Assembly (NCBI GenBank): GCA_934045905.1
Contig: OW203762.1
Span: 10,817,647 to 10,881,646 of the forward strand
Direction: 5' to 3'
From: Leuctra nigra
Lineage: Eukaryota; Arthropoda; Insecta; Plecoptera; Leuctridae
Length of the DNA: 64,000 bases
This document shows positions 1-63,263 of the stretch, piece after piece; the first letter of the stretch is position 1, and each line of letters begins with the position of its first letter. The notes beneath the pieces are model-generated. The model was given only the letters and a program-made list of their open reading frames with translations, searched no databases and had not been told where the DNA came from. Made by a program: the position numbers and the translations under genes.

Positions 1-3000
1 TGTCGGGACAGTCGAGCTCTACACGGACGGCAAAGAGGTGGGTGGATCCAGACCAATGTGTCGGCACAGTCGCGCTCTACACGGACGGCAAAGAGGTGGG
101 TGGATCCAGACCACTGTGTCGGGACAGTCGCGCTCTACACGGACGGCAAAGAGGTGGGTGGATCCAGACCAATGTGTCGGCACAGTCGCGCTCTACACGG
201 ACGGCAAAGAGGTGGGTGGATCCAGACCAATGTGTCGGGACAGTCGCGCTCTACACGGACGGCAAAGAGGTGGGTGGATCCAGACCAATGTGTCGGGACA
301 GTCGCGCTCTACACGGACGGCAAAGAGGTGGGTGGATCCAGACCAATGTGTCGGGACAGTCGCGCTCTACACGGACGGCAAAGAGGTGGGTGGATCCAGA
401 CCAATGTGTCGGCACAGTCGCGCTCTACACGGACGGCAAAGAGGTGGGTGGAACCAGACCAATGTGTCGGGACAGTCGCGCTCTACACGGACGGCAAAGA
501 GGTGGGTGGATCCAGACCAATGTGTCGGGACAGTCGCGCTCTACACGGACGGCAAAGAGGTGGGTGGATCCAGACCAATGTGTCGGGACGGTCGCGCTCT
601 ACACGGACGGCAAAGAGGTGGGTGGATCCAGACCAATGTGTCGGCACAGTCGCGCTCTACACGGACGGCAAAGAGGTGGGTGGATCCAGACCAATGTGTC
701 GGGACAGTCGCGCTCTACACGGACGGCAAAGAGGTGGGTGGATCCAGACCAATGTGTCGGGACAGTCGCGCTCTACACGGACGGCAAAGAGGTGGGTGGA
801 TCCAGACCAATGTGTCGGGACAGTCGCGCTCTACACGGACGGCAAAGAGGTGGGTGGATCCAGACCACTGTGTCGGGACAGTCGCGCTCTACACGGACGG
901 CAAAGAGGTGGGTGGATCCAGACCAATGTGTCGGGACAGTCGCGCTCTACACGGACGGCAAAGAGGTGGGTGGATCCAGACCAATGTGTCGGGACAGTCG
1001 CGCTCTACACGGACGGCAAAGAGGTGGGTGGATCCAGACCAATGTGTCGGGACAGTCGCGCTCTACACGGACGGGAAAGAGGTGGGTGGATCCAGACCAA
1101 TGTGTCGGCACAGTCGCGCTCTACACGGACGGCAAAGAGGTGGGTGGATCCAGACCAATGTGTCGGCACAGTCGCGCTCTACACGGACGGCAAAGAGGTG
1201 GGTGGATCCAGACCAATGTGTCGACACAGCCGCGCTCTACACGGACGGCAAAGAGGTGGGTGGATCCAGACCAATGTGTCGGCACAGTCGCGCTCTACAC
1301 GGACGGCAAAGAGGTGGGTGGATCCAGACCAATGTGTCGGGACAGTCGCGCTCTACACGGACGGGAAAGAGGTGGGTGGATCCAGACCAATGTGTCGGGA
1401 CAGTCGCGCTCTACACGGACGGCAAAGAGGTGGGTGGATCCAGACCAATGTGTCGGGACAGTCGCGCTCTACACGGACGGCAAAGAGGTGGGTGGATCCA
1501 GACCAATGTGTCGGGACAGTCGCGCTCTACACGGACGGCAAAGAGGTGTGTGGATCCAGACCACTGTGTCGGGACAGTCGCGCTCTACACGGACGGGAAA
1601 GAGGTGGGTGGATCCAGACCAATGTGTCGGGACAGTCGCGCTCTACACGGACGGCAAAGAGGTGGGTGGATCCAGACCAATGTGTCGGGACAGTCGCGCT
1701 CTACACGGACGGCAAAGAGGTGGGTGGATCCAGACCAATGTGTCGGGACAGTCGCGCTCTACACGGACGGGAAAGAGGTGGGTGGATCCAGACCAATGTG
1801 TCGGGACAGTCGCGCTCTACACGGACGGCAAAGAGGTGGGTGGATCCAGACCAATGTGTCGGCACAGTCGCGCTCTACACGGACTGGAAAGAGGTGTGTG
1901 GATCCAGACCACTGTGTCGGGACAGTCGCGCTCTACACGGACGGCAAAGAGGTGGGTGGATCCAGACCAATGTGTCGGGACAGTCGCGCTCTACACGGAC
2001 GGCAAAGAGGTGGGTGGATCCAGACCAATGTGTCGGGACAGTCGCGCTCTACACGGACGGCAAAGAGGTGGGTGGATCCAGACCAATGTGTCGGCACAGT
2101 CGCGCTCTACACGGACGGCAAAGAGGTGGGTGGATCCAGACCAATGTGTCGGGACAGTCGCGCTCTACACGGACGGCAAAGAGGTGGGTGGATCCAGACC
2201 AATGTGTCGGGACAGTCGCGCTCTACACGGACGGCAAAGAGGTGGGTGGATCCAGACCAATGTGTCGGGACAGTCGCGCTCTACACGGACGGCAAAGAGG
2301 TGGGTGGATCCAGACCAATGTGTCGGGACAGTCGCGCTCTACACGGACGGCAAAGAGGTGGGTGGATCCAGACCAATGTGTCGGCACAGTCGCGCTCTAC
2401 ACGGACGGCAAAGAGGTGGGTGGATCCAGACCAATGTGTCGGCACAGTCGCGCTCTACACGGACGGCAAAGAGGTGGGTGGATCCAGACCAATGTGTCGG
2501 GACAGTCGCGCTCTACACGGACGGCAAAGAGGTGGGTGGATCCAGACCAATGTGTCGGGACAGTCGCGCTCTACACGGACGGCAAAGAGGTGGGTGGATC
2601 CAGACCAATGTGTCGGGACAGTCGCGCTCTACACGGACGGGAAAGAGGTGGGTGGATCCAGACCAATGTGTAGGGACAGTCGCGCTCTACACGGACGGCA
2701 AAGAGGTGGGTGGAACCAGACCAATGTGTCGGGACAGTCGCGCTCTACACGGACGGCAAAGAGGTGGGTGGATCCAGACCAATGTGTCGGGACAGTCGCG
2801 CTCTACACGGACGGCAAAGAGGTGGGTGGGTCCAGACCAATGTGTCGGGACAGTCGCGCTCTACACGGACGGCAAAGAGGTGGGTGGATCCAGACCAATG
2901 TGTCGGGACAGTCGCGCTCTACACGGACGGCAAAGAGGTGGGTGGATCCAGACCAATGTGTCGGGACAGTCGCGCTCTACACGGACGGCAAAGAGGTGGG

Positions 3001-5611: not shown

Positions 5612-6450
5612 AAGGATGGATCGGGTTCCACGTGCTGATGAAGTGACACAATTACACAATTTGCATAAAACGAAGTATAGCTATAATTGACCAAGATAAG
5701 GCAATTACATTAAATGTCGCAACGTGTTTACATGTGCGTAAAGAGCATTAAAATGTACTATTACTCTGAATACTTGTAATTAGATTCAGCACAGTAAGAT
5801 AGACAAAGAAACACAATATAAACATCGTACAATAAAACCAGATCATTTACGATGATGATTTTAGATTTAAAAGCCAATTGTTCTTGACGCTGCAGTGTAG
5901 GAAACTCGGTTCAAACTCCGTGTTAAGCTCCTCTTGAAATATGCGCAAATTACTCGTTGGCCGCGGCCGATTGACAAAAGCGGAGGCTAGTTGTCGCTGT
6001 GACGGCGTCGCTAGAAGTTCGTAGTAGATCTGGGCAGGTCGATGGACCTCGCACCAAAACCTCTCGAAGCTGCGACCTCTCGAGTTGACGGTCTTGACCG
6101 CACTACCCTTCCTTCGTTCTCACACGGGGGGTAGATCACCCTCCCTCACACGCGACATTTCTTCTCAGGTCGTTGCCCCGAGATGGCTCCACACGTAAAC
6201 TTAGAACCACTAATTCCTCTAAGCTAGAACCATATACTGCAACACGGGCGTACCATTACAGGTGGAACCAGACCAATGTGTCGGGACAGTCGCGGAGTAT
6301 GTGAAGGTATTTGATCTTCACAAATATCTTGGCATAAAATATTTTAAAACTTCCCTCTTCCCATTAGAGTCAAATTAGGTATACTAGGTATCTGTTCTTG
6401 CCAGCTGTTACAGCAGTGAAGATGTAAATATGCTAATGTGTGTGTTGAAG
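5612..6450 (+). other. Intron of the channel gene
   Basis: This intron is AT-rich to about 5880, then GC-rich to about 6230. I recognise nothing in the GC-rich part. It ends at acceptor TTGAAG before 6451. Confidence 0.5.
6261..6295 (+). repeat. Isolated fragment of the 58-bp array unit
   Basis: A 35-bp piece matches the array unit (GGTGGAACCAGACCAATGTG followed by TCGGGACAGTCGCGG). It lies alone, 650 bp downstream of the array and in the same orientation. It carries the GGAACC variant and is cut off just before the conserved TCTACACGGACGG core. Confidence 0.85.
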
Positions 6451-6581
6451 ATGCGCCATATTGAGGACGGCGGCCATTTCGGCGAGACTGCCGTTGTCCT
6501 TGACAACACGATGCGCGTCTCCGCTGTCGTGGCCTTGGAGTGCTGCGAGCTCTACATCTTGCCGCAAGCAGATTTCCGCAG
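6451..6581 (+). CDS. Channel exon: cyclic-nucleotide-binding domain core
   Basis: The exon encodes MRHIEDGGHFGETAVVLD, then NTMRVSAVVALECCELYIL and PQADFR. The FGE motif of the phosphate-binding cassette and the following arginine (MRVSAV) align with the ligand-contacting residues of HCN/CNG channels, and C-x-LY-x-L matches the last beta strand. It opens at TTGAAG|ATG and closes at CGCAG|GTCAGC: 131 nt, phase 0 in and phase 2 out. The family is clear. The subtype (HCN-like, CNG-like or a divergent insect HCN paralogue) is not, because the transmembrane part lies outside the window. Confidence 0.85.
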
Positions 6582-6763
6582 GTCAGCAACTCTTATAACA
6601 CGCTGTGCCAATTCTTGAGATTTCCCGTTTTGAAGCCGTTCTCATTTTTAACACGTAAAATAGTTGACAACTAGACCTTGGCTGTCAACTTTTTTTATTT
6701 TGTAAAGAAAGACGGAAATTACTCTTGATCACGAAGTCATCGAAAAACAATTAAAATAATAAA

Positions 6764-7140
6764 CCGGGTGGCACAAAAAAATCACCCTGTTTGAGATGTC
6801 ACTATATCGAAACTATTATAGATAGGATTCTGAAATGTGTACACATATTAGAAAACATACCAAAATTTAATATGTGCAAGTTTTAAAAACATTACTATTG
6901 TAGGAAAAAAGTTACAGCTGTTCAAATTTGGGTGTCAAAAAATTGATTATACAGAGCTCAAATAGCGCGCGTCGAGAAAACTTCTAATGGCCGGGACTCT
7001 GTTTCTTCAAAACTACGTACGATATCAAGCTGAAAATTTTAAATTATATTGAAAATATATTACGATCGATTGTGTAAAAATTTCAATCAATTTGAATGAA
7101 TGGAACGAAAATTATGGAATCTTGACGTTGAGCTTGAAAA
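6764..7140. repeat. Dispersed repeat, copy 1
   Basis: This segment begins CCGGGTGGCACA. It shares blocks such as GTTACAGCTGTT, ACGGAGCTCAAATAGC-like and GGCCGGGAC...CTGTTTCTTCAAAACTAC with 63264-63600, in the same orientation. No coding capacity is seen. Confidence 0.7.
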
Positions 7141-7298
7141 CAGAATAATGGGAAAATAATCACTTTTATAACGTGTGTAATAAAAGTTTAGAAAATAATC
7201 TACATAGGTATTATGACTTTACGCTCAACTTCAAGATTCCATAATTTTCGTTCCATCCATTCAAATTGATTGAAATTTTTACACAATCGATCTTAAAT
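7055..7298. repeat. Inverted repeat (hairpin)
   Basis: The left arm (about 7061-7142, GATTGTGTAAAAATTTCAAT...) is the reverse complement of 7210-7293. The loop is about 70 bp. It abuts the larger foldback element that follows and may be its subterminal region. Confidence 0.75.
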
Positions 7299-8526
7299 AT
7301 ATTTTTGAGCGAGCGAAGCGAGCGTCTCCTTTTGGCTCTTTTGGCACAAACCTCTGTTTTTTTTTTTTTTTTTTTTTTTTTTGATTTTATTTTCCGTTTA
7401 CTGACGCTATACAGGTCAGAGTTTTTCTTCGATTGAATTTTGCACACATGTGGAGACAACCTTTTCTGTTTGCTGACCCCTAATTTTTTTTAAAAGAATT
7501 GATTGGTTAAAATTTAAATAAACATCTCCTGATGGTAGGCTGAAAATGACAATGGTCTTCGATAAATCTGTTCAAACTCATATTTTGGCTATACAGGTCA
7601 GAGTTTTTCTTCGATCGAGCTGAAATTTTGCACACATGTAAAACCAACCTTCTCTGTTTGCATACCATTTTTTTTTAAAAATCCATTAATTGGTTAAAAT
7701 TTAAATAAATATCTCCTGATAGGCTGAAAAATTAAAACGGTCTTCGATAATTCTGATCAAACTCATATTTTGCATGATCATTAAGACCAATATTGTCTCT
7801 TATTTTACAAAATTTCATCCCAATCAGTAAAGAACGTATGAATGTATTGACATTTTTAATATCTGTCAGTAATGAAGTATCGAAATGAATGTTTTCCAGT
7901 GCCAATTGAATTGATTCTGATTTGCTTTATGAACCAGGTGCTTAGATGCTATTTTAAAGTTTCGATGAAAAGCATAATACTTTTAAGTTGATATCATAAT
8001 CAATTCAATATGGATGTATAAGTGTTCTGTGCGTTGTGTACGCATTTCTGGTTCGAGAATTTGCACGTACCCGTGCTCGCTCATCAACGCGTTACATTGA
8101 GCGTTTTCCTAGTTATTTAAATTTTAACCAACGAATGGATTTCAAAAAAATTAGGTTCTTGAAACAGAAAAGGTTGTCTCTACATGTGTGCAAAATTTCA
8201 GCTCGATCGAAGAAAAACTCTGACCTGTATGGCCAAAATATGAGTTTGATCAGTTTTATCGAAGACATTGTCATTTTTCAACCTACCATCAGGAGATGTT
8301 TATTTAAATTTTAGCCAAAGAATGGATTTCAAAAAATTTTGGGGTCTGCAAACAGAAAAGGTTGTCTCCACATGTGTGCAAAATTTCAGGTCGATCGAAG
8401 AAAAACTGTGACTTGTATATCGTCAGGCAGCAGAAAAAAAACCACACAAAAATACAAAAAAAACAGAGGTCTGTGCCAAAAGAGCCAAAAGGAGACGCTC
8501 GCTTCGCTCGCTCAAAAATATATTTA
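7297..8526. mobile_element. Foldback element, 1.2 kb
   Basis: The ends are inverted repeats built around GAGCGAGCGAAGCGAGCG...CCAAAAGAGCC: left about 7303-7355, right about 8460-8520. Inside, a block with TTCGATCGAGCTGAAATTTT and a block with TTAAATAAACATCTCCTGAT occur several times in both orientations. A poly(T) tract covers 7357-7382. No transposase ORF is present, so it is non-autonomous. A degraded relative lies near 26810-27110. Confidence 0.75.
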
Positions 8527-10063: not shown

Positions 10064-10163
10064 AGTTATGAATCAGTATCCTGAGCTGCTCGACAACCTT
10101 CAACAACTGACGTCTCGCAGGCACGACAGAAAGCAGCGCAGCAAGTCCTACAGTGAACAATAG
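10064..10163 (+). CDS. Channel terminal coding exon
   Basis: Acceptor TTCTTGCAG precedes A|GTTATGAATCAGTATCC. With the phase-2 AG of the previous exon it reads RVMNQYPELLDNLQQLTSRR, then HDRKQRSKSYSEQ and a TAG stop at 10161. VMNQYPELLDNL matches the C-helix of an HCN-type nucleotide-binding domain (the F-x-x-V-L-x-x-YP region). The protein ends about 30 residues after the domain, a short tail compared with most HCN channels. The stop codon lies inside the first unit of the tandem array that follows. AATAAA hexamers at 10888 and 10984 are possible poly(A) signals. Confidence 0.85.
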
Positions 10164-10480
10164 AGTCATGCATTGTCGTACAGTGAACCTGAGTGAACCT
10201 GAGTCATTCATTGTCCTACAGTGAACAGTAGAGTCATTCATTGTCCTACAGTGAACAGTAGAGTCATTCATTGTCCTACAGTGAACAATTGAGTCATTCA
10301 TTGTCCTACAGTGAACAGTAGAGTCATTAATTGTCCTACAGAGAACAGTAGAGTCATTCATTGTCCTACAGTGAACAATGCGTCATTCATTGTCCTACAG
10401 TGAACAGTAGAGTCATGCATTGTCCTACAGGGACCAGTAGAATATAATAATGTGTTCATTGTCCTACACTGAACTCTAAC
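10146..10480 (+). repeat. 30-bp tandem array spanning the channel stop codon and 3' UTR
   Basis: About ten units of TCCTACAGTGAACARTAGAG plus TCATTCATTG begin in the last six codons of the terminal exon. The unit is 30 bp, so the stop TAG recurs in phase in most copies. Copies decay after about 10440. Confidence 0.93.
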
Positions 10481-25369: not shown

Positions 25370-25419
25370 TCACCTGTTGCATCGACAGTCATTATCGAAA
25401 ACTTAATTTGTTATCTGTA

Positions 25420-46000: not shown

Positions 46001-49000
46001 TGCTGCTGAGCTCGTTCTTCTGGGGCTACTTGCTGACTCATGCTGACTCATGCTGACTGATTGTACAGGAGTTCGAGTGGGACTCTAAGACACAGTCTCT
46101 GCTGCTGAGCTCGTTGTTCTGGGGCTACGTGCTGACTCAGCTGACTCATGCTGACTGATTGTACAGGAGTTCGAGTGGGACTCTAAGACACAGTCTCTGC
46201 TGCTGAGCTCGTTCTTCTGGGGCTACGTGCTGATTTAGCTGACTCACGCTGACTGATTGTACAGGAGTTCGAGTGGGACTCTAAGACACAGTCTCTGCTG
46301 CTGAGATTGTTCTTCTGGGGCTACGTGCTGACTCATGCTGATTTATGCTGACTGATTGTACAGGAGTTCGAGTGGGACACTAAGACACAGTCTCTGCTGC
46401 TGAGCTCGTTCTTCTGGGGCTACGTGCTGACTCATGCTGACTCATGCTGACTGATTGTACAGGAGTTCGAGTGGGACTCTAAGACACAGTCTCTGCTGCT
46501 GAGCTCGTTCTTCTGGGGCTACGTGCTGACTCATGCTGACTCATGCTGACTGATTGTACAGGAGTTCGAGTGGGACACTAAGACACAGTCTCTGCTGCTG
46601 AGCTCGTTCTTCTGGGGCTACGTGCTGACTCATGCTGACTCATGCTGACTGATTGTACAGGAGTTCGAGTGGGACTCTAAGACACAGTCTCTGCTGCTGA
46701 GCTCGTTCTTCTGGGGCTACGTGCTGACTCAGCTGACTCATGCTGACTGATTGTACAGGAGTTCGAGTGGGACTCTAAGACACAGTCTCTGCTGCTGAGC
46801 TCGTTCTTCTGGGGCTACGTGCTGACTCATGCTGACTCATGCTGACTGATTGTACAGGAGTTCGAGTGGGACTCTAAGACACAGTCTCTGCTGCTGAGCT
46901 CGTTCTTCTGGGGCTACGTGCTGACTCATGCTGACTCATGCTGACTGATTGTACAGGAGTTCGAGTGGGACTCTAAGACACAGTCTCTGCTGCTGAGCTC
47001 GTTCTTCTGGGGCTACGTGCTGACTCATGCTGACTCATGCTGACTGATTGTACAGGAGTTCGAGTGGGACTCTAAGACACAGTCTCTGCTGCTGAGCTCG
47101 TTCTTCTGGGTTTACGTGCTGACTCAGCTGACTCATGCTGACTGATTGTACAGGAGTTCGAGTGGGACTCTAAGACACAGTCTCTGCTGCTGAGCTCGTT
47201 CTTCTGGGGCTACGTGCTGACTCATGCTGACTCATGCTGACTGATTGTACAGGAGTTCGAGTGGGACTCTAAGACACAGTCTCTGCTGCTGAGCTCGTTC
47301 TTCTGGGGCTACGTGCTGACTCATGCTGACTCATGCTGACTGATTGTACAGAAGTTCGAGTGGGACTCTAAGACACAGTCTCTGCTGCTGAGCTCGTTCT
47401 TCTGGGGCTACGTGCTGACTCATGCTGACTCATGCTGACTGATTGTACAGGAGTTCGAGTGGGACTCTAAGACACAGTCTCTGCTGCTGAGCTCGTTCTT
47501 CTGGGGCTACGTGCTGACTCATGCTGACTCATGCTGACTGATTGTACAGGAGTTCGAGTGGGACTCTAAGACACAGTCTCTGTTGCTGAGCTCGTTCTTC
47601 TGGGGCTACGTGCTGACTCAGCTGCCCGCGGGACCACTTGTTGAGCGCTTCGGATCCAAGGTCATGCTGAGCTGTGCCGTGCTGACGTCATCACTAGTCG
47701 CCATGGTCACGCCGCTGGCTGCTATCTGGGGCGGCTGGGGTTGGGTCTGTGCCACCCGAGTGATACAGGGTCTGGTACAGGTCAGTGATGGGGAAGATCG
47801 AGTTATGATGCAATCTTTTCAAAGCTCTGTTAGTTGAGTTGATTATGATGAGTATAGGACTGCAACCAATTACATATACCTGACATGACGACTAATAGAC
47901 TAATTTATACCCAGTTTTTCAGCTTAACCAGTAGTTAAGTTTAAAACGGGCATTCTAGGATTGATATTGGTTGTAACCATGGTAATAGTCCTTATCAACT
48001 GTTTAAAATGTAGCAGAGTGTTGAAATACTGGCCCTTAACCTGTTAGCTAAATTGTTCTGGAGAAAAACTCATTTAACTGGGTGATTTTTTTTTTCTAAA
48101 ATGATTGAATTAATTAATAATTTTATTAACTTCAAACTTGCATTTCTGTTTTCGGTTTGCAATACCTTGTTTTCTAGTTTAGCAGAATAAATAGCTGTAC
48201 CTTATGCAAACATGGCTCAAATGAACTTAAACAAATGACTCTGTTACGTAACAAGTTCTTATTTTCCTTTCCAGGGCTGTATTACTCCGTGCATCCACAC
48301 ACTCCTCGCTAACTGGGCGCCGGCGCCTGAAAGAGGGAGATTTTCTACTTGGGCGTACGCAGGTGAGTTCTGTGGGTCAAGGGGTTGGGTCAAGGGTTGG
48401 GACAAGAAGGGGTCAAGTACTTTGAGTTTATCAGGATTTCCAAAATTATCATTTGTTCAAAAAGAAACGGTGTGACCAAAGATATTATGAATACCTGCTC
48501 ACGTGAGTTTTAATAATATCTTTGGTATGACCATTTAGAAACATGATTTCCATTATACGACATAATGCTGTATTAATTTAATTACAGTTTGTTTAATAGT
48601 CTGGACTCTGTACAGGCTCTGTCGTGGGGACAATCATCACTCTGCCCCTGTGCGGTGTCCTCGTCACCAGCGCCGTGGGGTGGCCGTCAAACTTCTAGCT
48701 GTTCAGGGCGCTGGGAGTTGTCTGGAGTGTGTTAATAGTCTGGACTCTGTACAGGCTCTGTCGTGGGGACAATCATCACTCTGCCCCTGTGCGGTGTCCT
48801 TGTCACCAGCGCCGTGGGGTGGCCGTCAAACTTCTAGCTGTTCAGGGCGCTGGGAGTTGTCTGGAGTGTGTTAATAGTCTGGACTCTGTACAGGCTCTGT
48901 CGTGGGGACAATCATCACTCTGCCCCTGTGCGGTGTCCTCGTCACCAGCGCCGTGGGGTGGCCGTCAAACTTCTAGCTGTTCAGGGCGCTGGGAGTTGTC

Positions 49001-52000
49001 TGGAGTGTGTTAATAGTCTGGACTCTGTACAGGCTCTGTCGTGGGGACAATCATCACTCTGCCCCTGTGCGGTGTCCTCGTCACCAGCGCCGTGGGGTGG
49101 CCGTCAAACTTCTGGCTGTTCGGGGCGCTGGGAGTTGTCTGGAGTGTGTTAATAGTCTGGACTCTGTACAGGCTCTGTCGTGGGGACAATCATCACTCTG
49201 CCCCTGTGCGGTGTCCTCGTCACCAGCGCCGTGGGGTGGCCGTCAAACTTCTGGCTGTTCGGGGCGCTGGGAGTTGTCTGGAGTGTGTTAATAGTCTGGA
49301 CTCTGTACAGGTTCTGTCGTGGGGACAATCATCACTCTGCCCCTGTGCGGTGTCCTCGTCACCAGCGCCGTGGGGTGGCCGTCAAACTTCTGGCTGTTCG
49401 GGGCGTTGGGAGTTGTCTGGAGTGTGTTAATAGTCTGGACTCTGTACAGGCTCTGTCGTGGGGACAATCATCACTCTGCCCCTGTGCGGTGTCCTCGTCA
49501 CCAGCGCCGTGGGGTGGCCGTCTAACTTCTGGCTGTTCGGGGCGCTGGGAGTTGTCTGGAGTGTGTTCTGGATGATCTTCGGCGCCAACTCGCCCGCGGA
49601 ACATCGCAGCATCTCGGATCAGGAGCGCGTCTACATCCAGGAGTCAGTCGGGATCACGGCGGTGTCGAGAGAAGAGGCGAGTTATAGTGGCGTAGTGTCA
49701 TGTGACTTGAGACTAGGCACTGCATAGCCTTTTGTAAAGTCGCCGCTATGCTGTTATGCTGTGCTGAATAGTAGAATAGCAATTGAGAAACTATAATTGA
49801 TAACGACGGTTATTTCTTATTAACATATTTTATGAAGTCCGGTTCTCTTGAACTTATTGCTCGAATTGCATGTGAGGATTTAAATATATTTCATTAAGTA
49901 ATTCATGCCTCACTCTATGCTGAAGAATGCAATTCGTCTTTCCAAGAAAGGAATTAAGAGTTTGCACATGTATAGTTTGCAAACTATAACGTCAGTGCCG
50001 CTATGGGCTATCGTGGCGGCACACTGCGGATGATGTTGTATTATGATTGCTCTGCTGCAGAAGCCTCCTATTCCCTGGAAGTCTATCTTGACGTCAGTGC
50101 CGCTATGGGCTATCGTGGCGGCACACTGCGGATGATGTTGTATTATGATTGCTCTGCTGCAGAAGCCTCCTATTCCCTGGAAGTCTATCTTGACGTCAGT
50201 GCCGCTATGGGCTATCGTGGCGGCACACTGCGGATGATGTTGTATTATGATTGCTCTGCTGCAGAAGCCTCCTATTCCCTGGAAGTCTATCTTGACGTCA
50301 GTGCCGCTATGGGCTATCGTGGCGGCACACTGCGGATGATGTTGTATTATGATTGCTCTGCTGCAGAAGCCTCCTATTCCCTGGAAGTCTATCTTGACGT
50401 CAGTGCCGCTATGGGCTATCGTGGCGGCACACTGCGGATGATGTTGTATTATGATTGCTCTGCTGCAGAAGCCTCCTATTCCCTGGAAGTCTATCTTGAC
50501 GTCAGTGCCGCTATGGGCTATCGTGGCGGCACACTGCGGATGATGTTGTATTATGATTGCTCTGCTGCAGAAGCCTCCTATTCCCTGGAAGTCTATCTTG
50601 ACGTCAGTGCCGCTATGGGCTATCGTGGCGGCACACTGCGGATGATGTTGTATTATGATTGCTCTGCTGCAGAAGCCTCCTATTCCCTGGAAGTCTATCT
50701 TGACGTCAGTGCCGCTATGGGCTATCGTGGCGGCACACTGCGGATGATGTTGTATTATGATTGTTCTGCTGCAGAAGCCTCCTATTCCCTGGAAGTCTAT
50801 CTTGACGTCAGTACCGCTATGGGCTATCGTGGCGGCACACTGCGGATGATGTTGTATTATGATTGCTCTGCTGCAGAAGCCTCCTATTCCCTGGAAGTCT
50901 ATCATGACGTCAGTGCCGCTATGGGCTATCGTGGCGGCACACTGCGGATGATGTTGTATTATGATTGCTCTGCTGCAGAAGCCTCCTATTCCCTGGAAGT
51001 CTATCTTGACGTCAGTGCCGCTATGGGCTATCGTGGCGGCACACTGCGGATGATGTTGTATTATGATTGCTCTGCTGCAGAAGCCTCCTATTCCCTGGAA
51101 GTCTATCTTGACGTCAGTGCCGCTATGGGCTATCGTGGCGGCACACTGCGGATGATGTTGTATTATGATTGCTCTGCTGCAGAAGCCTCCTATTCCCTGG
51201 AAGTCTATCTTGACGTCAGTGCCGCTATGGGCTATCGTGGCGGCACACTGCGGATGATGTTGTATTATGATTGCTCTGCTGCAGAAGCCTCCTATTCCCT
51301 GGAAGTCTATCTTGACGTCAGTGCCGCTATGGGCTATCGTGGCGGCACACTGCGGATGATGTTGTATTATGATTGCTCTGCTGCAGAAGCCTCCTATTCC
51401 CTGGAAGTCTATCTTGACGTCAGTGCCGCTATGGGCTATCGTGGCGGCACACTGCGGATGATGTTGTATTATGATTGCTCTGCTGCAGAAGCTTCCTATT
51501 CCCTGGAAGTCTATCTTGACGTCAGTGCCGCTATGGGCTATCGTGGCGGCACACTGCGGATGATGTTGTATTATGATTGCTCTGCTGCAGAAGCCTCCTA
51601 TTCCCTGGAAGTCTATCTTGACGTCAGTGCCGCTATGGGCTATCGTGGCGGCACACTGCGGATGATGTTGTATTATGATTGCTCTGCTGCAGAAGCCTCC
51701 TATTCCCTGGAAGTCTTTCTTGACGTCAGTGCCGCTATGGGCTATCGTGGCGGCACACTGCGGATGATGTTGTATTATGATTGCTCTGCTGCAGAAGCCT
51801 CCTATTCCCTGGAAGTCTATCTTGACGTCAGTGCCGCTATGGGCTATCGTGGCGGCACACTGCGGATGATGTTGTATTATGATTGCTCTGCTGCAGAAGC
51901 CTCCTATTCCCTGGAAGTCTATCTTGACGTCAGTGCCGCTATGGTCTATCGTGGCGGCACACTGCGGATGATGTTGTATTATGATTGCTCTGCTGCAGAA

Positions 52001-55000
52001 GCCTCCTATTCCCTGGAAGTCTATCTTGACGTCAGTACCGCTATGGGCTATCGTGGCGGCACACTGCGGATGATGTTGTATTATGATTGCTCTGCTGCAG
52101 AAGCCTCCTATTCCCTGGAAGTCTATCTTGACGTCAGTGCCGCTATGGTCTATCGTGGCGGCACACTGCGGATGATGTTGTATTATGATTGCTCTGCTGC
52201 AGAAGCCTCCTATTCCCTGGAAGTCTATCTTGACGTCAGTGCCGCTATGGGCTATCGTGGCGGCACACTGCGGAAGATGTTGTATTATGATTGCTCTGCT
52301 GCAGAAGCCTCCTATTCCCTGGAAGTCTATCTTGACGTCAGTGCCGCTATGGGCTATCGTGGCGGCACACTGCGGATGATGTTGTATTATGATTGCTCTG
52401 CTGCAGAAGCCTCCTATTCCCTGGAAGTCTATCTTGACGTCAGTGCCGCTATGGGCTATCGTGGCGGCACACTGCGGATGATGTTGTATTATGATTGCTC
52501 TGCTGCAGAAGCCTCCTATTCCCTGGAAGTCTATCTTGACGTCAGTGCCGCTATGGGCTATCGTGGCGGCACACTGCGGATGATGTTGTATTATGATTGC
52601 TCTGCTGCAGAAGCCTCCTAATCCCTGGAAGTCTATCTTGACGTCAGTGCTGCTATGGGCTATCGTGGCGGCACACTGCGGATGATGTTGTATTATGATT
52701 GCTCTGCTGCAGAAGCCTCCTATTCCCTGGAAGTCTATCTTGACGTCAGTGCCGCTATGGGCTATCGTGGCGGCACACTGCGGATGATGTTGTATTATGA
52801 TTGCTCTGCTGCAGAAGCCTCCTATTCCCTGGAAGTCTATCTTGACGTCAGTGCCGCTATGGGCTATCGTGGCGGCACACTGCGGATGATGTTGTATTAT
52901 GATTGCTCTGCTGCAGAAGCCTCCTATTCCCTGGAAGTCTATCTTGACGTCAGTGCCGCTATGGGCTATCGTGGCGGCACACTGCGGATGATGTTGTATT
53001 ATGATTGCTCTGCTGCAGAAGCCTCCTATTCCCTGGAAGTCTATCTTGACGTCAGTGCCGCTATGGGCTATCGTGGCGGCACACTGCGAATGATGTTGTA
53101 TTATGATTGCTCTGCTGCAGAAGCCTCCTATTCCCTGGAAGTCTATCTTGACGTCAGCGCCGCTATGGTCTATCGTGGCGGCACACTGCGGATGATGTTG
53201 TATTATGATTGCTCTGCTGCAGAAGCCTCCTATTCCCTGGAAGTCTATCTTGACGTCAGTACCGCTATGGGCTATCGTGGCGGCACACTGCGGATGATGT
53301 TGTATTATGATTGCTCTGCTGCAGAAGCCTCCTATTCTTTGGAAGTCTATCTTGACGTCAGTGCCGCTATGGTCTATCGTGGCGGCACACTGCGGATGAT
53401 GTTGTATTATGATTGCTCTGCTGCAGAAGCCTCCTATTCCCTGGAAGTCTATCTTGACGTCAGTGCCGCTATGGGCTATCGTGGCGGCACACTGCGGATG
53501 ATGTTGTATTATGATTGCTCTGTTGCAGAAGCCTCCTATTCCCTGGAAGTCTATCTTGACGTCAGTGCCGCTATGGGCTATCGTGGCGGCACACTGCGGA
53601 TGATGTTGTATTATGATTGCTCTGCTGCAGAAGCCTCCTATTCCCTGGAAGTCTATCTTGACGTCAGTGCCGCTATGGGCTATCGTGGCGGCACACTGCG
53701 GATGATGTTGTATTATGATTGCTCTGCTGCAGAAGCCTCCTATTCCCTGGAAGTCTATCTTGACGTCAGTGCCGCTATGGGCTATCGTGGCGGCACACTG
53801 CGGATGATGTTGTATTATGATTGCTCTGCTGCAGAAGCCTCCTATTCTCTGGAAGTCTATCTTGACGTCAGTGCTGCTATGGGCTATCGTGGCGGCACAC
53901 TGCGGATGATGTTGTATTATGATTGCTCTGCTGCAGAAGCCTCCTATTCCCTGGAAGTCTATCTTGACGTCAGTGCCGCTATGGGCTATCGTGGCGGCAC
54001 ACTGCGGATGATGTTGTATTATGATTGCTCTGCTGCAGAAGCCTCCTATTCCCTGGAAGTCTATCTTGACGTCAGTGCCGCTATGGGCTATCGTGGCGGC
54101 ACACTGCGGATGATGTTGTATTATGATTGCTCTGCTGCAGAAGCCTCCTATTCCCTGGAAGTCTATCTTGACGTCAGTGCCGCTATGGTCTATCGTGGCG
54201 GCACACTGCGGATGATGTTGTATTATGATTGCTCTGCTGCAGAAGCCTCCTATTCCCTGGAAGTCTATCTTGACGTCAGTGCCGCTATGGGCTATCGTGG
54301 CGGCACACTGCGGATGATGTTGTATTATGATTGCTCTGCTGCAGAAGCCTCCTATTCCCTGGAAGTCTATCTTGACGTCAGTGCCGCTATGGTCTATCGT
54401 GGCGGCACACTGCGGATGATGTTGTATTATGATTGCTCTGCTGCAGAAGCCTCCTATTCCCTGGAAGTCTATCATGACGTCAGTGCCGCTATGGGCTATC
54501 GTGGCGGCACACTGCGGATGATGTTGTATTATGATTGCTCTGCTGCAGAAGCCTCCTATTCCCTGGAAGTCTATCATGACGTCAGTGCCGCTATGGGCTA
54601 TCGTGGCGGCACACAGCGAATGATGTTGTATTATGATTGTTCTGCTGCAGAAGCCTCCTATTCCCTGGAAGTCTATCTTGACGTCAGTGCCGCTATGGGA
54701 TATCGTGGCGGCACACTGCGGATGATGTTGTATTATGATTGCTCTGCTGCAGAAGCCTCCTATTCCCTGGAAGTCTATCTTGACGTCAGTGACGCTATGG
54801 GCTATCGTGGCGGCACACTGCGGATGATGTTGTATTATGATTGCTCTGCTGCAGAAGCCTCCTATTCCCTGGAAGTCTATCTTGACGTCAGTGCCGCTAT
54901 GGGCTATCGTGGCGGCACACTGCGGATGATGTTGTATTATGATTGCTCTGCTGCAGAAGCCTCCTATTCCCTGGAAGTCTATCTTGACGTCAGTGCCGCT

Positions 55001-58000
55001 ATGGTCTATCGTGGCGGCACACTGCGGATGATGTTGTATTATGATTGCTCTGCTGCAGAAGCCTCCTATTCCCTGGAAGTCTATCATGACGTCAGTGCCG
55101 CTATGGGCTATCGTGGCGGCACACTGCGGATGATGTTGTATTATGGTTGCTCTGCTGCAGAAGCCTCCTATTCCCTGGAAGTCTATCATGACGTCAGTGC
55201 CGCTATGGGCTATCGTGGCGGCACACTGCGAATGATGTTGTATTATGATTGTTCTGCTGCAGAAGCCTCCTATTCCCTGGAAGTCTATCTTGACGTCAGT
55301 GCCGCTATGGGCTATCGTGGCGGCACACTGCGGATGATGTTGTATTATGATTGCTCTGCTGCAGAAGCCTCCTATTCCCTGGAAGTCTATCTTGACGTCA
55401 GTGACGCTATGGGCTATCGTGGCGGCACACTGCGGATGATGTTGTATTATGATTGCTCTGCTGCAGAAGCCTCCTATTCCCTGGAAGTCTATCTTGACGT
55501 CATTACCGCTATGGTCTATCGTGGCGGCACACTGCGGATGATGTTGTATTATGATTGTTCTGCTGCAGAAGCCTCCTATTCCCTGGAAGTCTATCTTGAC
55601 GTCAGTGCCGCTATGGGCTATCGTGGCGGCACACTGCGGATGATGTTGTATTATGATTGCTCTGCTGCAGAAGCCTCCTGTTCCCTGGAAGTCTATCTTG
55701 ACGTCAGTGCCGCTATGGTCTATCGTGGCGGCACACTGCGGATGATGTTGTATTATGATTGCTCTGCTGCAGAAGCCTCCTATTCCCTGGAAGTCTATCT
55801 TGACGTCAGTGCCGCTATGGTCTATCGTGGCGGCACACTGCGGATGATGTTGTATTATGATTGCTCTGCTGCAGAAGCCTCCTATTCCCTGGAAGTCTAT
55901 CTTGACGTCAGTGCCGCTATGGTCTATCGTGGCGGCATACTGCGGATGATGTTGTATTATGATTGCTCTGCTGCAGAAGCCTCCTATTCCCTGGAAGTCT
56001 ATCTTGACGTCAGTGCCGCTATGGGCTATCGTGGCGGCACACTGCGGATGATGTTGTATTATGATTGCTCTGCTGCAGAAGCCTCCTATTCCCTGGAAGT
56101 CTATCTTGACGTCAGTGCCGCTATGGGCTATCGTGGCGGCACACTGCGGATGATGTTGTATTATGATTGCTCTGCTGCAGAAGCCTCCTATTCCCTGGAA
56201 GTCTATCTTGACGTCAGTGCCGCTATGGGCTATCGTGGCGGCACACTGCGGATGATGTTGTATTATGATTGCTCTGCTGCAGAAGCCTCCTATTCCCTGG
56301 AAGTCTATCTTGACGTCAGTGCCGCTATGGGCTATCGTGGCGGCACACTGCGGATGATGTTGTATTATGATTGTTCTGCTGCAGAAGCCTCCTATTCCCT
56401 GGAAGTCTATCTTGACGTCAGTGCCGCTATGGGCTATCGTGGCGGCACACTGCGGATGATGTTGTATTATGATTGCTCTGCTGCAGAAGCCTCCTATTCC
56501 CTGGAAGTCTATCTTGACGTCAGTGCCGCTATGGGCTATCGTGGCGGCACACTGCGGATGATGTTGTATAATGATTGCTCTGCTGCAGAAGCCTCCTATT
56601 CCCTGGAAGTCTATCTTGACGTCAGTGCCGCTATGGTCTATCGTGGCGGCACACTGCGGATGATGTTGTATTATGATTGCTCTGCTGCAGAAGCCTCCTA
56701 TTCCCTGGAAGTCTATCTTGACGTCAGTGCCGCTATGGGCTATCGTGGCGGCACACTGCGGACAGTATTGGGGTTTCTGGACCTTGATGACGGAGATGCC
56801 GACCTTCATGAACTCGGTGCTGCTCTTTGACCCCAAGGCGGTGAGCTCAAAAACCATGAGTTTTCATACGAGTTTGGGCTCAAATATTGTATTTGTGTTT
56901 TGCTTAGATAGACTCAACAATTAGATACGCTAATTATTTTTCATATTTTTCATAATTTGAATGCTACAATTTAGTGATTTTATTACGATATTTACGAAAT
57001 ATTCTGTACAATGTTTGCCCTCGTGTGCAGTCGACTTACAGAACGATCTGTTACAGAACGGATTGCTGTCAGCTCTGCCGTATCTCTGCCAATGGATAGT
57101 GAGCTTCTTCGTCGGCTGGATCTCTGACGTAATGAACAGGAAGAAACTTGTCACTCTTGTCGTCTCTAGAAAGATCTTCAACACAATTGGTAAATTACTT
57201 TCACTTCATTACCTCAAAGACCATGTTACTATTTGAAATGCACTAGAAAATGTGTAGGTATGTACTAAGATAGCTATTGTAGTTGATACCACGGTTCTCG
57301 TCAGATCACCAATGTTAAGCAACATTGAGCATGCGGTCAGTAGTTAGATGGATGACCGTTCAACTCTGTCTTGCTGCCGTTGGGCCAGAGAGACTGGGGT
57401 GTTTGGGGGTCAGATTGACGACCTCCATCCACCTGTTATCAGTTTCTCGACGGCGCTGGTTGTGGAGGCACATGCTGTGAATGTTTCACCGTCCTTCGGA
57501 TGAAACGTTAAGCCGGTGGTCCCCTTGGTATCTTCTGTCAGGAGTAGGCTTCATGCCGGTAGCGGGAATTTCCTCTCCTCCCACTCTCCTCCCTTCTCTA
57601 TTACATTCTCACTGTGGAGCCTCGGCTCTATTGAGAATAGGCTTAACAATAATAATACTTGTCTGATGAAGGTCACTGGGTGCCCGCCCTGGCGCTCATC
57701 GGCCTCGGCTACACGAGCCCCTCGCAGCCGGCGCTCGCCGTCGCGATGCTCGCCGTCGCCGTCGGCGTCAACTCCGCAACCTACGTCGGCTTCACCATCA
57801 ACCACATCGACCTGTCGCCCAACTACGCCGGCACGCTGATGGGGATCACCAACTGCATCGGCAACATGATGTCGATCATAGCGCCCCTGGTGGTGGGCGT
57901 CATAGTCACTGAGGAGGTGAGGAATACACTGACTATACGAACCATCGGCAACATGATGTCGATCATAGCGCCCCTGGTGGTGGGCGTCATAGTCACTGAG

Positions 58001-59365
58001 GAGGTGAAGAGTACACTGACTACGAACCATCGGCAACATGATGTCGATCATAGCGCCCCTGGTGGTGGGTGTCATAGTCACTGAGGAGGTGAGGAATACA
58101 CTGACTACGAACCATCGGCAACATGATGTCGATCATAGCGCCCCTGGTGGTGGGCGTCATAGTCACTGAGGAGGTGAGGAATACACTGACTATACGAACC
58201 ATCGGCAACATGATGTCGATCATAGCGCCCCTGGTGGTGGGCGTCATAGTCACTGAGGAGGTGAGGAATACACTGACTATACGAACCATCGGCAACATGA
58301 TGTCGATCATAGCGCCCCTGGTGGTGGGCGTCATAGTCACTGAGGAGGTGAGGAATACACTGACTACGAACCATCGGCAACATGATGTCGATCATAGCGC
58401 CCCTGGTGGTGGGCGTCATAGTCACTGAGGAGGTGAGGAATACACTGACTACGAACCATCGGCAACATGATGTCGATCATAGCGCCCCTGGTGGTGGGCG
58501 TCATAGTCACTGAGGAGGTGAGGAATACACTGACTACGAACCATCGGCAACATGATGTCGATCATAGCGCCCCTGGTGGTGGGCGTCATAGTCACTGAGG
58601 AGGTGAGGAATACACTGACTACGAACCATCGGCAACATGATGTCGATCATAGCGCCCCTGGTGGTGGGCGTCATAGTCACTGAGGAGGTGAGGAGTACAC
58701 TGACTACGAACCATCGGCAACATGATGTCGATCATAGCGCCCCTGGTGGTGGATGTCATAGTCACTGAGGAGGTGAGGAATACACTGACTAAGTGTGTAC
58801 ATTTTCTTCTTTCATTCTTTATTTGAAGAGAAATATCAGAAGTGTAGGAATAGTTTTTCAATTACCTGCTAAATTTTAAGCGATTTATTTGGACTAAATT
58901 GCCGTGGCAACCCAATAACATTCGTGGAATTTAAGTGTAAGAACACAATTTACTAACCTCTTACCAAATTGCCACAGGGATCTTAAGTGACACTTCTCTG
59001 GTATACACATAGTCACATGTGACACTACTTTTATAATAATGAAATAATGAAAACGAAATAATTCAAACTGAAATAATTTCAGATCGATATTATCTTTATT
59101 GTCGTGAAATGATTTCGTTTTGAAAATGAGACACATACCAACACAGTCACAACGTTCTCTATGCAATGGTTTGTGACGTATGTTTCAGGGCAACGTGATG
59201 CAGTGGCGCACCGTGTTCTTCATCTCAGCCGGGGTGTACTTCCTGGCCAACCTCGTGTTCATCGTATTCGGTAAAGCCGATGTCCAACCCTGGGACTCGC
59301 CCCGAAGAAAGTCAAAAGAGGACATAAGACTCAACGTAGTGGCCGTACCAGTGTATACTCAATGA
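28042..59365 (+). CDS. SLC17-family anion transporter (nine exons, 475 aa)
   Basis: Join 28042-28090, 34247-34374, 47550-47780, 48275-48362, 49450-49676, 56691-56840, 57057-57189, 57672-57916 and 59189-59365: 1428 nt, every phase consistent. The protein has the SLC17 (sialin / vesicular glutamate / sodium-phosphate cotransporter) landmarks in order: GLGVRH...RVNLSIAIVAMV (TM1), SFFWGYVLTQLPAGPLVERFG (TM2), RVIQGLVQG, TLLANWAPAPERGR, YAGSVVGTIITLPLCG, IPWKSILTSVPLWAIVAAH, GFWTLMTEMPTFM, NGLLSALPYL, FTINHIDLSPNYAGTLMGI and QWRTVFFISAGVYF. Insect members are usually named putative inorganic phosphate cotransporters, but the substrate (phosphate, urate or other organic anion) cannot be read here. 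Twelve membrane spans are expected. Five introns or exons carry large exon-edge arrays, making this 1.4-kb CDS span 31 kb. Confidence 0.92.
28166..33285. mobile_element. Large foldback element 2 in SLC17 intron 1 (5.1 kb)
   Basis: It has the same architecture as element 1: terminal hairpins (28166-28540 and 32155-33285, stems with CTTGGCGCATCG), arms 28555-29460 and 30944-32150 in inverse orientation, and CTAGTGGAGCGGTCGCTCCA at the centre. The right hairpin has a divergent stem containing CGAGAAATACTTAAAAAAGG. Arms hold CCGGAAGTGACGTCA and AAAATGGCGGC motifs. No transposase ORF. A hAT MITE (29464-30089) is nested inside; 30098-30943 is unique AT-rich filler. Confidence 0.85.
29464..30089. 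mobile_element. hAT-type MITE nested in foldback element 2
   Basis: TAGGGTTGCCAACTGTCCGG at the left and GTTGGCAACCCTA at the right, with internal ATTGTCCGGAATT repeats. An exact 8-bp target duplication GGAGCGAC is at 29456-29463 and 30090-30097. The 626 bp hold no transposase. Confidence 0.94.
33506..34337 (+). repeat. 141-bp acceptor-edge array of SLC17 exon 2 (six copies)
   Basis: Units contain CTTCTTCTCTCTTGTTCAG and the first ~90 nt of exon 2. Exon starts are at 33546, 33683, 33824, 33965, 34106 and 34247. The unit is 47 codons, so from copy 2 onward the exon frame stays open straight through the intron part (AIPCIHPLLEYLLLSCSG) into the next copy. Copy 1 has a 4-nt deletion (CGGG) that breaks the frame. 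Copies 1-5 have AG|GTC at the boundary; copy 6 has AG|GAC. Confidence 0.96.
34247..34374 (+). CDS. SLC17 exon 2 (TM1)
   Basis: The sixth acceptor, TTGTTCAG|GACTGGGTG, opens the exon in phase 1, and TTCCAG|GTTAGC closes it in phase 0. It encodes LGVRHAQTFFMFSGFLVAYS and MRVNLSIAIVAMVDNKSNTN, the first membrane span and start of the lumenal loop. NKS is a possible glycosylation site at the usual place for SLC17 members. Confidence 0.92.
34375..35649 (+). other. SLC17 intron 2, unique part
   Basis: AT-rich intron with a partial SINE, a short run of CAGTACTAG/CCAGTACATGCC-type repeats (34905-34960) and a CTCCTC-rich tract (35276-35297). No coding segment was recognised. Confidence 0.5.
34699..34918 (+). 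mobile_element. 5S rRNA-derived SINE, copy 2 (head deleted)
   Basis: It starts ATACCACGGTTGCCGTCAGC, lacks most of the 5S promoter region, and then matches the family body GGGCCAGAGAGACTGGGGTG and GTTGTGGAGGCACGTG. Confidence 0.75.
35650..47624 (+). repeat. 98/99-bp acceptor-edge array of SLC17 exon 3 (about 120 copies)
   Basis: Twelve kilobases of units. Each has GCTGACTCATGCTGACTGAT, then TGTACAG and the first ~65 nt of exon 3 (GAGTTCGAGTGGGACTCTAA...). Length varies (98, 99 and shorter) through the CTGACTCA(T)G motif. Reading from any decoy acceptor gives ...WGYVLT(Q)L/HAD then TGA within the next intron part. Intron parts carry repeated CTGAC branch-point-like motifs. Markers GTTTTTCTGGGGCTAGG (37981/42688), TTCTAGG (40424/45131), GAGATTG (41596/46303) and GGGTTTACG (42401/47108) repeat at exactly 4707 bp, showing a near-identical tandem duplication of a 48-unit block (about 37930-42636 and 42637-47343). 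Confidence 0.97.
47550..47780 (+). CDS. SLC17 exon 3 (TM2-TM3)
   Basis: The last of ~120 acceptors, ATTGTACAG|GAG, opens the exon, and GTACAG|GTCAGT closes it: 77 codons, phase 0 both ends. It encodes EFEWDSKTQSLLLSSFFWGY, then VLTQLPAGPLVERFGSK and RVIQGLVQ. The F-F-W-G-Y-x-x-T-Q-x-P-x-G-x-x-x-x-R-F-G stretch is diagnostic for SLC17. Confidence 0.94.
47781..48274 (+). other. SLC17 intron 3
   Basis: 494-bp AT-rich intron with a standard acceptor (TTTCCTTTCCAG). Nothing else was seen. It is one of the few SLC17 introns with no array. Confidence 0.7.
48275..48362 (+). CDS. SLC17 exon 4
   Basis: CTTTCCAG|GGC opens in phase 0 and GCAG|GTGAGT closes in phase 1 (88 nt). GCITPCIHTLLANWAPAPER then GRFSTWAYA matches the conserved SLC17 cytosolic W-x-P-x-x-E-R-x-R loop. 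Confidence 0.93.
48591..49567 (+). repeat. 139-bp acceptor-edge array of SLC17 exon 5 (seven copies)
   Basis: Units contain GTTAATAGTCTGGACTCTGT, ACAG and the first ~115 nt of exon 5. Exon starts are at 48616, 48755, 48894, 49033, 49172, 49311 and 49450. Copies 1-3 have TTCTAG where copies 4-7 have TTCTGG (Trp to stop) and AGG for CGG three codons later. The sixth acceptor is followed by GTTCTG instead of GCTCTG. A small hairpin (48471-48535, ACCAAAGATATTAT) lies just upstream. Confidence 0.96.
49450..49676 (+). CDS. SLC17 exon 5 (TM4-TM6 region, GC donor)
   Basis: The seventh acceptor, TGTACAG|GCTCTG, opens in phase 1. GSVVGTIITLPLCGVLVTSA, VGWPSNFWLFGALGVVWSVF and SPAEHRSISDQERVYIQESV are SLC17 signatures. 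The only donor that keeps frame and joins SREE to KPPIPWKS is GAGAAGAG|GCGAGT, a GC-AG intron. Confidence 0.9.
49989..56762 (+). repeat. 102-bp acceptor-edge array of SLC17 exon 6 (66 acceptors)
   Basis: Units are TGATGTTGTATTATGATTGC, TCTGCTGCAG and the first ~72 nt of exon 6. Acceptors fall every 102 bp: the first exon start is 50061 and the last 56691, exactly 65 periods. The array's left edge begins inside exon sequence (ACGTCAGTGCCGCTATGG). In the exon frame each decoy reads KPPIPWKSILTSVPLWAIVA, AHCG then TGA. Since 102 is divisible by three, other frames on both strands stay open (one minus-strand ORF of 2315 codons). These are artefacts. Variants such as GGTCTATC, TATCATGACG and GTACCGC recur in blocks, again showing multi-unit duplication. 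Confidence 0.97.
56691..56840 (+). CDS. SLC17 exon 6
   Basis: The last CTGCTGCAG|AAG opens the exon, and AAGGCG|GTGAGC closes it: 50 codons, phase 0. KPPIPWKSILTSVPLWAIVA and WGFWTLMTEMPTFMNSVLLF are highly conserved in the family. Confidence 0.94.
57057..57189 (+). CDS. SLC17 exon 7
   Basis: Chosen acceptor CTGTTACAG|AACGGA gives FDPKA-NGLLSALPYLCQWIV, which aligns gap-free with the family's F-x-x-x-x-N-G-x-L-S-A-L-P-Y-L. A duplicate acceptor 15 nt upstream (CTTACAG|AACGAT, 57042) is also in frame and would insert NDLLQ. A third AG at 57030 is out of frame. The exon ends ATTG|GTAAAT in phase 1 and includes WISDVMNRKKLVTLVVSRKI. Confidence 0.85.
57285..57659 (+). mobile_element. 5S rRNA-derived SINE, copy 3 (most complete)
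   Basis: It runs from ATACCACGGTTCTCGTCAGA through the 5S-like promoter (AAGCAACATTGAGC, GTCAGTAGTTAGATGGATGA) and body (GGGCCAGAGAGACTGGGGTG) to a 3' part ending AACAATAATAATA. The tail stops about 12 bp before the acceptor of SLC17 exon 8. Confidence 0.88.
57672..57916 (+). CDS. SLC17 exon 8 (TM9-TM11 region)
   Basis: GTCTGATGAAG|GT opens in phase 1 with a poor pyrimidine tract. Sequence HWVPALALIGLGY, VGFTINHIDLSPNYAGTLMG and NMMSIIAPLVVGVIVTEE follows. The first of eleven donors, GAGGAG|GTGAGG, closes it in phase 0. The exon is strikingly GC-rich (GCCGTCGCGATGCTCGCCGT). Confidence 0.93.
57856..58791 (+). repeat. 85-87-bp donor-edge array of SLC17 exon 8 (eleven copies)
   Basis: Each unit has the last ~60 nt of exon 8 (CATCGGCAACATGATGTCGA...), donor GAGGAG|GTGAGG and AATACACTGACTA(TA)CGAAC. 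Donors are at 57917, 58004, 58089, 58174, 58261, 58348, 58433, 58518, 58603, 58688 and 58773. The first intervening unit is 87 nt and open in frame; later 85-nt units shift the frame. Confidence 0.96.
58792..59188 (+). other. Remainder of SLC17 intron 8
   Basis: AT-rich intron, about 400 bp. Nothing was recognised before acceptor ATGTTTCAG. Confidence 0.6.
59189..59365 (+). CDS. SLC17 exon 9 (TM12, C-terminus)
   Basis: TGTTTCAG|GGC opens in phase 0. GNVMQWRTVFFISAGVYFLA then NLVFIVFGKADVQPWDS are the final SLC17 span and tail. A 30-residue cytosolic end (...NVVAVPVYTQ) precedes TGA at 59363. Confidence 0.94.
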   Translation, partial: GNVMQWRTVFFISAGVYFLANLVFIVFGKADVQPWDSPRRKSKEDIRLNVVAVPVYTQ

Positions 59366-63220: not shown

Positions 63221-63263
63221 CTAGGAAAGTGAGAGGAAGAATGTCATCTTTTACTATATATTA

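Follow-up and report, generated by a model that had tools for sequence, protein, structure and literature searches.

In the stonefly Leuctra nigra, the edges of many coding exons have been copied into tandem repeats at many places in the genome, and the genes apparently splice around the copies. Reading of about 360 kb revealed 24 such edge arrays, 22 over splice sites (15 acceptors and seven donors) and two over stop codons, with up to 126 copies each. They are present on at least nine of the 13 chromosomes (1, 2, 3, 4, 5, 8, 9, 11 and X), which does not agree with the local process that an earlier, sequence-only reading had proposed for three adjacent genes. These arrays are probably minisatellites born at exon edges, like those known as mirages in lancelets and as exon stuttering in chicken, and they would result from GC-biased duplication combined with the purging of duplications inside coding sequence and the tolerance of those at its edges.

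The window, i.e. the whole 64-kb stretch of DNA analyzed, lies on chromosome 2 of the ipLeuNigr2.1 assembly. TRF detected eight arrays in it with periods of 30–141 bp and five or more copies (Table 1), at the places and with the periods that the sequence-only reading had given. Its assignment of five arrays to acceptors, two to donors and one to a stop codon was likewise borne out by edge reading and junction counts, which placed a splice site inside the unit of seven arrays and a stop codon inside that of the eighth. The genuine exon continues an open reading frame and forms the final copy of an acceptor array or the first copy of a donor array. Three other arrays with a period of at least 30 bp (at 7406, 11959 and 59543; TRF) comprise 1.8–2.4 copies and are intronic or intergenic.

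Table 1. Exon-edge arrays of the window and the exons to which they belong (window coordinates).
Feature	Position	Strand	Evidence
58-bp array, ×97 in window, channel exon donor (cyclic-nucleotide-binding region)	1..5611	+	TRF
Following channel exon, cyclic-nucleotide-binding domain	6444..6581	+	Reading frame
30-bp array, ×9.7, 86% match, over channel gene stop codon and past stop	10145..10441	+	TRF
140-bp array, ×5.7, acceptor of serpin exon 2	17232..18032	+	TRF; AG intact at 6/6 junctions
Serpin exon 2, genuine copy (last array copy)	17905..18204	+	Junction counts, reading
141-bp array, ×5.8, acceptor of SLC17 exon 2	33524..34336	+	TRF; AG intact at 6/6 junctions
SLC17 exon 2, genuine copy	34247..34374	+	Junction counts, reading
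98/99-bp array, ×122, acceptor of SLC17 exon 3	35650..47624	+	TRF; AG intact at 121/122 junctions
SLC17 exon 3, genuine copy	47550..47780	+	Junction counts, reading
139-bp array, ×7, acceptor of SLC17 exon 5	48593..49567	+	TRF; AG intact at 7/7 junctions
SLC17 exon 5, genuine copy, 3′ end approximate	49450..49680	+	Reading, junction counts
102-bp array, ×66, acceptor of SLC17 exon 6	49989..56762	+	TRF; AG intact at 66/66 junctions
SLC17 exon 6, genuine copy	56691..56840	+	Junction counts, reading
SLC17 exon 8, genuine copy	57672..57916	+	Junction counts, reading
85/87-bp array, ×11, donor of SLC17 exon 8	57856..58791	+	TRF; GT intact at 11/11 junctions

The 58-bp channel array starts 1.7 kb upstream of the window (L014:8264) and totals 126 copies, with GT kept at all 126 junctions; its first copy extends an upstream exon. 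The joined channel exons match cNMP_binding of Pfam (63 bits), and the stop codon of this gene (10161-10163; reading frame ...KQRSKSYSEQ*) is located inside the 30-bp array. When joined via the genuine copies, the serpin matches the Pfam serpin domain over positions 4-369 of 370 (289 bits), and SLC17 matches MFS_1 over positions 2-347 of 347 (203 bits). Among the matches listed (120 of 867), those with the highest identity to SLC17 are from two termites and a katydid (56%), followed by a cockroach and a mosquito (54%), which fits a polyneopteran without deciding the matter alone. In the exon 5 array of this gene, a TGG codon is changed to the stop codon TAG in copies 1–3 (sequence reading).

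Several further features of the window were distinguished. Sub-repeat positions within the SLC17 exon 3 array (35650-47624) recur at an offset of 4,707 bp (39155 to 43862, and seven others), which reflects either a large block duplication within the array or an assembly duplication. SLC17 exon 7 (57031-57189) carries a 15-bp in-frame near-duplication (ttacagaacgatctg / ttacagaacggattg), possibly a rare survivor of an intra-exon duplication. The adjoining Orai gene (60660-63221, minus strand; PF07856, 129 bits; three exons read) contains no TRF array with a period of at least 30 bp. A dispersed repeat (gagcgagcgaagcgagcgtctccttttggctcttttggcac) is found at 7310-8510 and in L053, in both orientations, and the 185-bp pair at 7406 is apparently part of it. 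Dispersed elements of the fold-back type that bear long inverted termini (ccataaaaaacact..gccaagtctctt .. gcgcatcg) are present at 19385-20290 and 32158-33290, and also in L068.

A dispersed satellite or transposon was ruled out as the source of the SLC17 exon 6 array, since in a genome search made for this array only, by a method that skips very common words, the copies matched only at their own locus; the search covered 536.20 Mb in 144 contigs, compared with 536.30 Mb in 174 scaffolds of the full assembly, some small scaffolds being absent. Three further matches to part of exon 6 were single pieces with 76–83% identity, and no array like that of exon 6 was seen there. Pairs of Pkinase matches with identical scores, 11–14 kb apart and with open frames of 508 and 490 aa, occur at six places (G000; C2:7119915/7133825, C2:10623434/10636679, C2:12286610/12297556, C5:7414767/7427579, C5:7460366/7473178 and C6:22657749/22670449). 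They apparently represent a large dispersed two-kinase element, either a transposon or an endogenous DNA virus, one copy of which lies about 0.2 Mb from the window.

Beyond the window, twenty 10-kb stretches were read, and the class of each array (edge, interior or noncoding) was assigned by reading. Ten of these stretches lie beside the window; the other ten have fixed, round-number coordinates on chromosomes 1, 3, 4 and 5. Six more edge arrays were identified: two acceptor arrays and one donor array in an ionotropic-receptor-like gene of L013 (Pfam match of 26 bits, below the cut-off of 30), a second channel acceptor array (L014), a minus-strand acceptor array on an exon called coding by the codon model, without a Pfam match (L018), and a donor array (L019). 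Arrays without a coding edge (period of at least 40 bp, match of at least 90%) were found in L016, L019 (three), L021, L022 and L023; the 112-bp array of L019 was scored as noncoding on the basis that no coding piece was found left of or within it, its right end being beyond the 900 added bases. Two 31-bp arrays (L009:439-518, 2.6 copies, 90% match; L009:3212-3315, 3.4 copies, 83% match), which fall below the 40-bp period limit of the array count given below, lie close to, or at, the limits of a long open frame (1181-3223), itself in GC-rich DNA upstream of the window, and are possibly coding. An acceptor array was also present in L003, one of eight loci from an initial Pfam search. On chromosome 4, a channel exon is repeated in about 50 copies with 137-bp spacing (Pfam search) and forms a donor array, as determined by reading both ends; this locus was picked because it was visibly an array.

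A separate set comprised 38 exons chosen by Pfam match, blind to arrays: 20 serpin exons, hand-taken across the match list together with flanks of 800 bp, and 18 Ion_trans exons, hand-taken, mostly short open frames, with flanks of 600 bp. An edge array with at least 95% match occurred in eight of the 38 loci, on the picked exon in seven and on a neighbouring exon in one, and eight of the nine arrays of that match level in the set lie on coding edges. Acceptor arrays were found in L040 (141 bp, ×6.5) and, within the Ion_trans exons, in L061, L065 (29 bp; one part with 96% match, the other with 89%) and L066. Donor arrays were found in L058 (95% match, with an additional 22-bp pair at 83%) and on the neighbouring upstream exon of L042 (104 bp, ×6.5), where splicing was assigned by reading. 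Two of the edge arrays contain only two copies, over the stop codon in L034 (100% match) and over an acceptor in L037 (98% match), both with a blunt junction by reading; they may represent an early stage of array growth. The remaining repeats were a noncoding array (L033; 167 bp, ×2, 99% match), a 31-bp array with 77% match (L041) and a decayed noncoding pair (75%; L060). In L048, a 22-bp array of 32 copies (102-807; 88% match) ends 5 nt before the acceptor AG, so the array itself forms the 3′ end of the intron. The repeated, independent expansion of exon edges noted in the window is thus a recurrent feature around exons picked by homology, although the cause aimed at splice sites that was suggested with it is not required.

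In the splice-site arrays, the intron part of the unit has a median length of 30 nt in acceptor and 24 nt in donor arrays, and the exon part a median of 70; the depth of the junction in the unit varies, with an intron part of about 4–51 nt over 19 rows, the parts being unreliable for the other three of the 22 (L018, L042 and L066), for some of which the genuine exon lies outside the stretch. No G-quadruplex motif was present among the 22 units, and such structures were accordingly set aside as an explanation. The remainders at array ends range from 3 to 133 bp and are often ragged, a measure that has no meaning for copies with indels. Duplication by microhomology was set aside as a rule in view of these remainders and of the blunt junctions, by reading, in both two-copy edge cases. 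At least two arrays (SLC17 exon 6 and L018) start part-way into the exon piece, so one simple duplication is insufficient as an explanation.

To what extent the position of the arrays departs from random placement was assessed first in the window, with each array collapsed to one unit (36.6 kb, 10.9% coding; GC content 0.58 in coding and 0.36 in noncoding DNA). A random unit spans a coding junction (a splice site or coding end) there with a probability of 0.03–0.14, or 0.03–0.42 with GC matching. None of 100,000 simulations with uniform placement gave at least seven junction-spanning units out of eight, and GC matching gave that outcome at a rate of 3e-4, in a test that uses the same window where the pattern was noticed and in which some exon ends are approximate. 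The unselected set, made up of the fixed-position 100 kb and the 38 exon loci, contains 15 arrays with a period of at least 40 bp and a match of at least 90%, a small number, from which L065 (29 bp) and the chromosome 4 array (chosen as an array) are left out. Eight of these lie on edges, seven are noncoding and none is interior. Coding exposures were derived from a codon model with 3,138 training codons, most of them from the same exons, which made no coding call in 12 kb of noncoding DNA.

With interiors excluded, the edge share of 8/15 compares with 8.8% expected under uniform placement (P=1.3e-5) and with 29% expected at a GC content of at least 0.47 (P=0.045, borderline); edges carry arrays at about 2.7 times the noncoding rate after GC matching. 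The excess of arrays on edges at the sampled loci is therefore clear under the uniform model and only borderline with GC matching. Six of the seven noncoding arrays have a GC content of at least 0.47, a level that 15% of the noncoding windows of the random 100 kb reach; the seventh has 0.44. No interior array was found among the eight that overlap coding sequence, compared with about 47% expected (P=0.006), or among all 15, compared with 21% of GC-matched placements (P=0.03). The GC-rich noncoding arrays, the lack of interior arrays and the borderline edge excess together indicate that GC content and purifying selection explain the greater part of the pattern and leave a borderline remainder; since a roughly 2.7-fold excess is left after GC matching, these two factors may not be the whole story. 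The idea that the exon interior acts as a boundary to the repeats fits less well than purifying selection, given the interior counts. Gene-body methylation was rejected as a driver of exon targeting, as the observed/expected CpG ratio is similar in exons (1.01) and noncoding DNA (1.06), with no sign of methylation-driven loss.

The borderline remainder is one argument for a process aimed at exon–intron junctions, such as co-transcriptional R-loop, spliceosome-linked or nucleosome-edge breakage, that duplicates splice-site segments. This explanation, which the sequence-only reading had put forward in general terms, could also draw on the seven splice-site arrays of the window, set against GC-matched junction shares of 0.13–0.42 each, and on the predominance of splice-site edges (22 of the 24 edge arrays read, the other two being stop-codon edges). 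We nevertheless regard it as unlikely: two of the edge arrays cover a stop codon (window 10145 and L034), noncoding arrays exist and show the same GC bias, the junction depth is not constant, and selection by itself would account for the absence of interior arrays. In the face of these observations and of the GC-matched P value, a process directed at splice sites is unneeded.

Ordinary minisatellites at uniformly random positions, with the pattern produced by chance and the reader's eye, are a distinctly less likely explanation. The fixed-position 100 kb, where one array out of seven is on an edge and six are noncoding, would agree with it, but uniform placement is contradicted by the edge share of 8/15, compared with 8.8% expected, at loci that had not been chosen for their arrays.

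It is very improbable that the arrays are under selection for a function, as regulated alternative splice sites or repeat-bearing protein isoforms. Although 409 of the 412 copies counted in 14 arrays retain their splice dinucleotides, the copies within an array are near-identical (22 distinct sequences in 126 copies, 41 in 121 in the SLC17 exon 3 array, 23 in 65 and 7 in 21), and with too few independent variants the intact dinucleotides mean little, so selection on inner-copy splice sites was discarded as an interpretation of this count. Insertion of one extra copy leaves an open frame in two of 12 acceptor arrays, SLC17 exon 2 and L040 (both 141 bp), but introduces a stop in eight, with one ambiguous case and one without a usable frame. 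Periods of the 22 splice-site arrays leave remainders of 0, 1 and 2 on division by three in six, nine and seven cases, respectively, without frame preference, and frame-preserving protein repeats were ruled out on these grounds. Moreover, the exon 6 array is not seen at the three other matching genomic places.

An assembly artefact, with false arrays generated from repeated or mis-joined reads, is the least credible explanation, since the features compatible with it (the 4,707-bp-offset block in the 12-kb SLC17 exon 3 array, which fragments of 12–20 kb barely span, a 200-N gap adjoining one array in L014, and a contig N50 of only 0.6 Mb) are outweighed by HiFi coverage of 32× and a QV of 57.2 (all assembly values being those in the available portion of the ipLeuNigr2.1 assembly paper), by five of the eight window arrays being shorter than 1 kb and well inside one read, by many different variants among copies and unrelated arrays on nine chromosomes, and by the lancelet and chicken precedents, the latter with a one-gene check in raw nanopore reads described in the accessible part of that study (PMC12954441).

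We thus return to minisatellites born at exon edges as the probable explanation. Breakage or faulty replication of GC-rich DNA would produce a tandem duplication of roughly 30–170 bp, for which fill-in synthesis at DNA breaks is a candidate route; the consulted section of one laboratory study describes small tandem duplications arising by such synthesis and end joining (PMC8355091), a repair outcome that, unlike the stonefly repeats, involves no arrays there and could account for the proposed first step only. Some duplications would then enlarge by unequal exchange or replication-based expansion, and copy numbers spread from two to over 120 across the arrays. Where the genome as a whole is AT-rich, exons would make up much of the GC-rich DNA around genes. 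Duplications wholly within coding sequence would damage the protein and be lost by selection, as the lack of interior arrays supports, whereas duplications that cover a splice site or stop codon may survive, the outermost copy joining the remaining exon. The extra half-exons have an acceptor or a donor, never both, so the genuine pair would stay nearest and exon definition should skip the copies and keep the mRNA normal. In stop-codon arrays, translation would end in the first copy. The arrays would accordingly be passengers that the genes tolerate, adding length to introns or 3′ ends, and a function need not be invoked.

The sequence-only reading knew of no named system of this kind, but two had already been named (PMC3087553, PMC3902484, PMC12954441), and lancelet mirages, chicken exon stuttering and the stonefly arrays are the same kind of phenomenon. 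Mirages, according to the accessible portions of the lancelet reports, are minisatellite-like tandem copies of 5′ or 3′ exon–intron boundaries with units of 10–160 bp, found in the genes for Adh3, the globins BflGb6 and BflGb9, troponin C and PGBD5; AG or GT is retained in many copies, the authentic exon is intact, clusters are homogenized internally, and RT-PCR suggests normal splicing (PMC3087553, PMC3902484). Stonefly units similarly span the boundary in all 22 splice-site arrays (14 counted junction by junction), both boundary types are represented, the copies are homogenized within clusters, and the authentic exon is intact, as judged by full Pfam domains in the serpin and SLC17 genes and by reading in the others. 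In those same portions, the lancelet clusters are small and described gene by gene (six and three units in BflGb6 haplotypes), in contrast to up to 126 copies in the stonefly, and the RT-PCR support for splicing has its stonefly counterpart in deduction from gene structure.

In the part of the chicken study available to us, exon stuttering is strictly local, with a source that in more than 90% of cases is no further than one base from the exon border, noncoding repeats also expand, GC content is the suspected cause, and dot chromosomes carry 190 of the 236 affected introns (3.4% of dot introns); the same pattern is mentioned for GC-rich genes of gerbils, with data not shown (PMC12954441). The stonefly shares strict locality, in the one array checked (SLC17 exon 6), and purely noncoding local expansions (7/15 arrays). 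Its arrays are, however, spread over the chromosomes of an AT-rich genome rather than concentrated on GC-rich dot chromosomes, their copies mostly match at 95–100% whereas the repeats of a chicken example differ by up to 20%, and they also occur over stop codons, whereas the chicken screen, as presented there, covered introns. The stonefly density is higher, although by a different measure (7/38 hand-picked exons of two families versus 3.4% of dot introns). Tandem repeats at exon–intron boundaries also reshape gene structure in human segmental duplications, where the portion consulted reports minisatellite-driven exon/intron changes with units of about 30 bp on average and four copies in recently duplicated genes (PMC2812944). 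No report of exon-edge arrays in insects was found in full-text searches of an open-access library, which leaves subscription journals mostly uncovered.

As far as the cited portions of the literature go, exon-edge copies were previously known from scattered lancelet genes and tiny GC-rich bird chromosomes. That they are frequent on many chromosomes in an insect with an AT-rich genome points to a general outcome of GC-biased duplication and selection, and this spread argues against a cause specific to dot chromosomes. In practical terms, edge arrays can disrupt contigs, gene models and short-read mapping. By extrapolation rather than by count, the genome may hold thousands of natural tests of exon definition in the presence of decoy splice sites. 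It is doubtful that exon edges are expanded directly by a germline process linked to transcription or splicing that affects, very roughly, one-fifth of coding exons (7/38 sampled); if it did, the stonefly would provide a natural experiment on dozens of decoy splice sites and on the seeding of introns. Edge arrays are a possible route to intron growth and intron gain.
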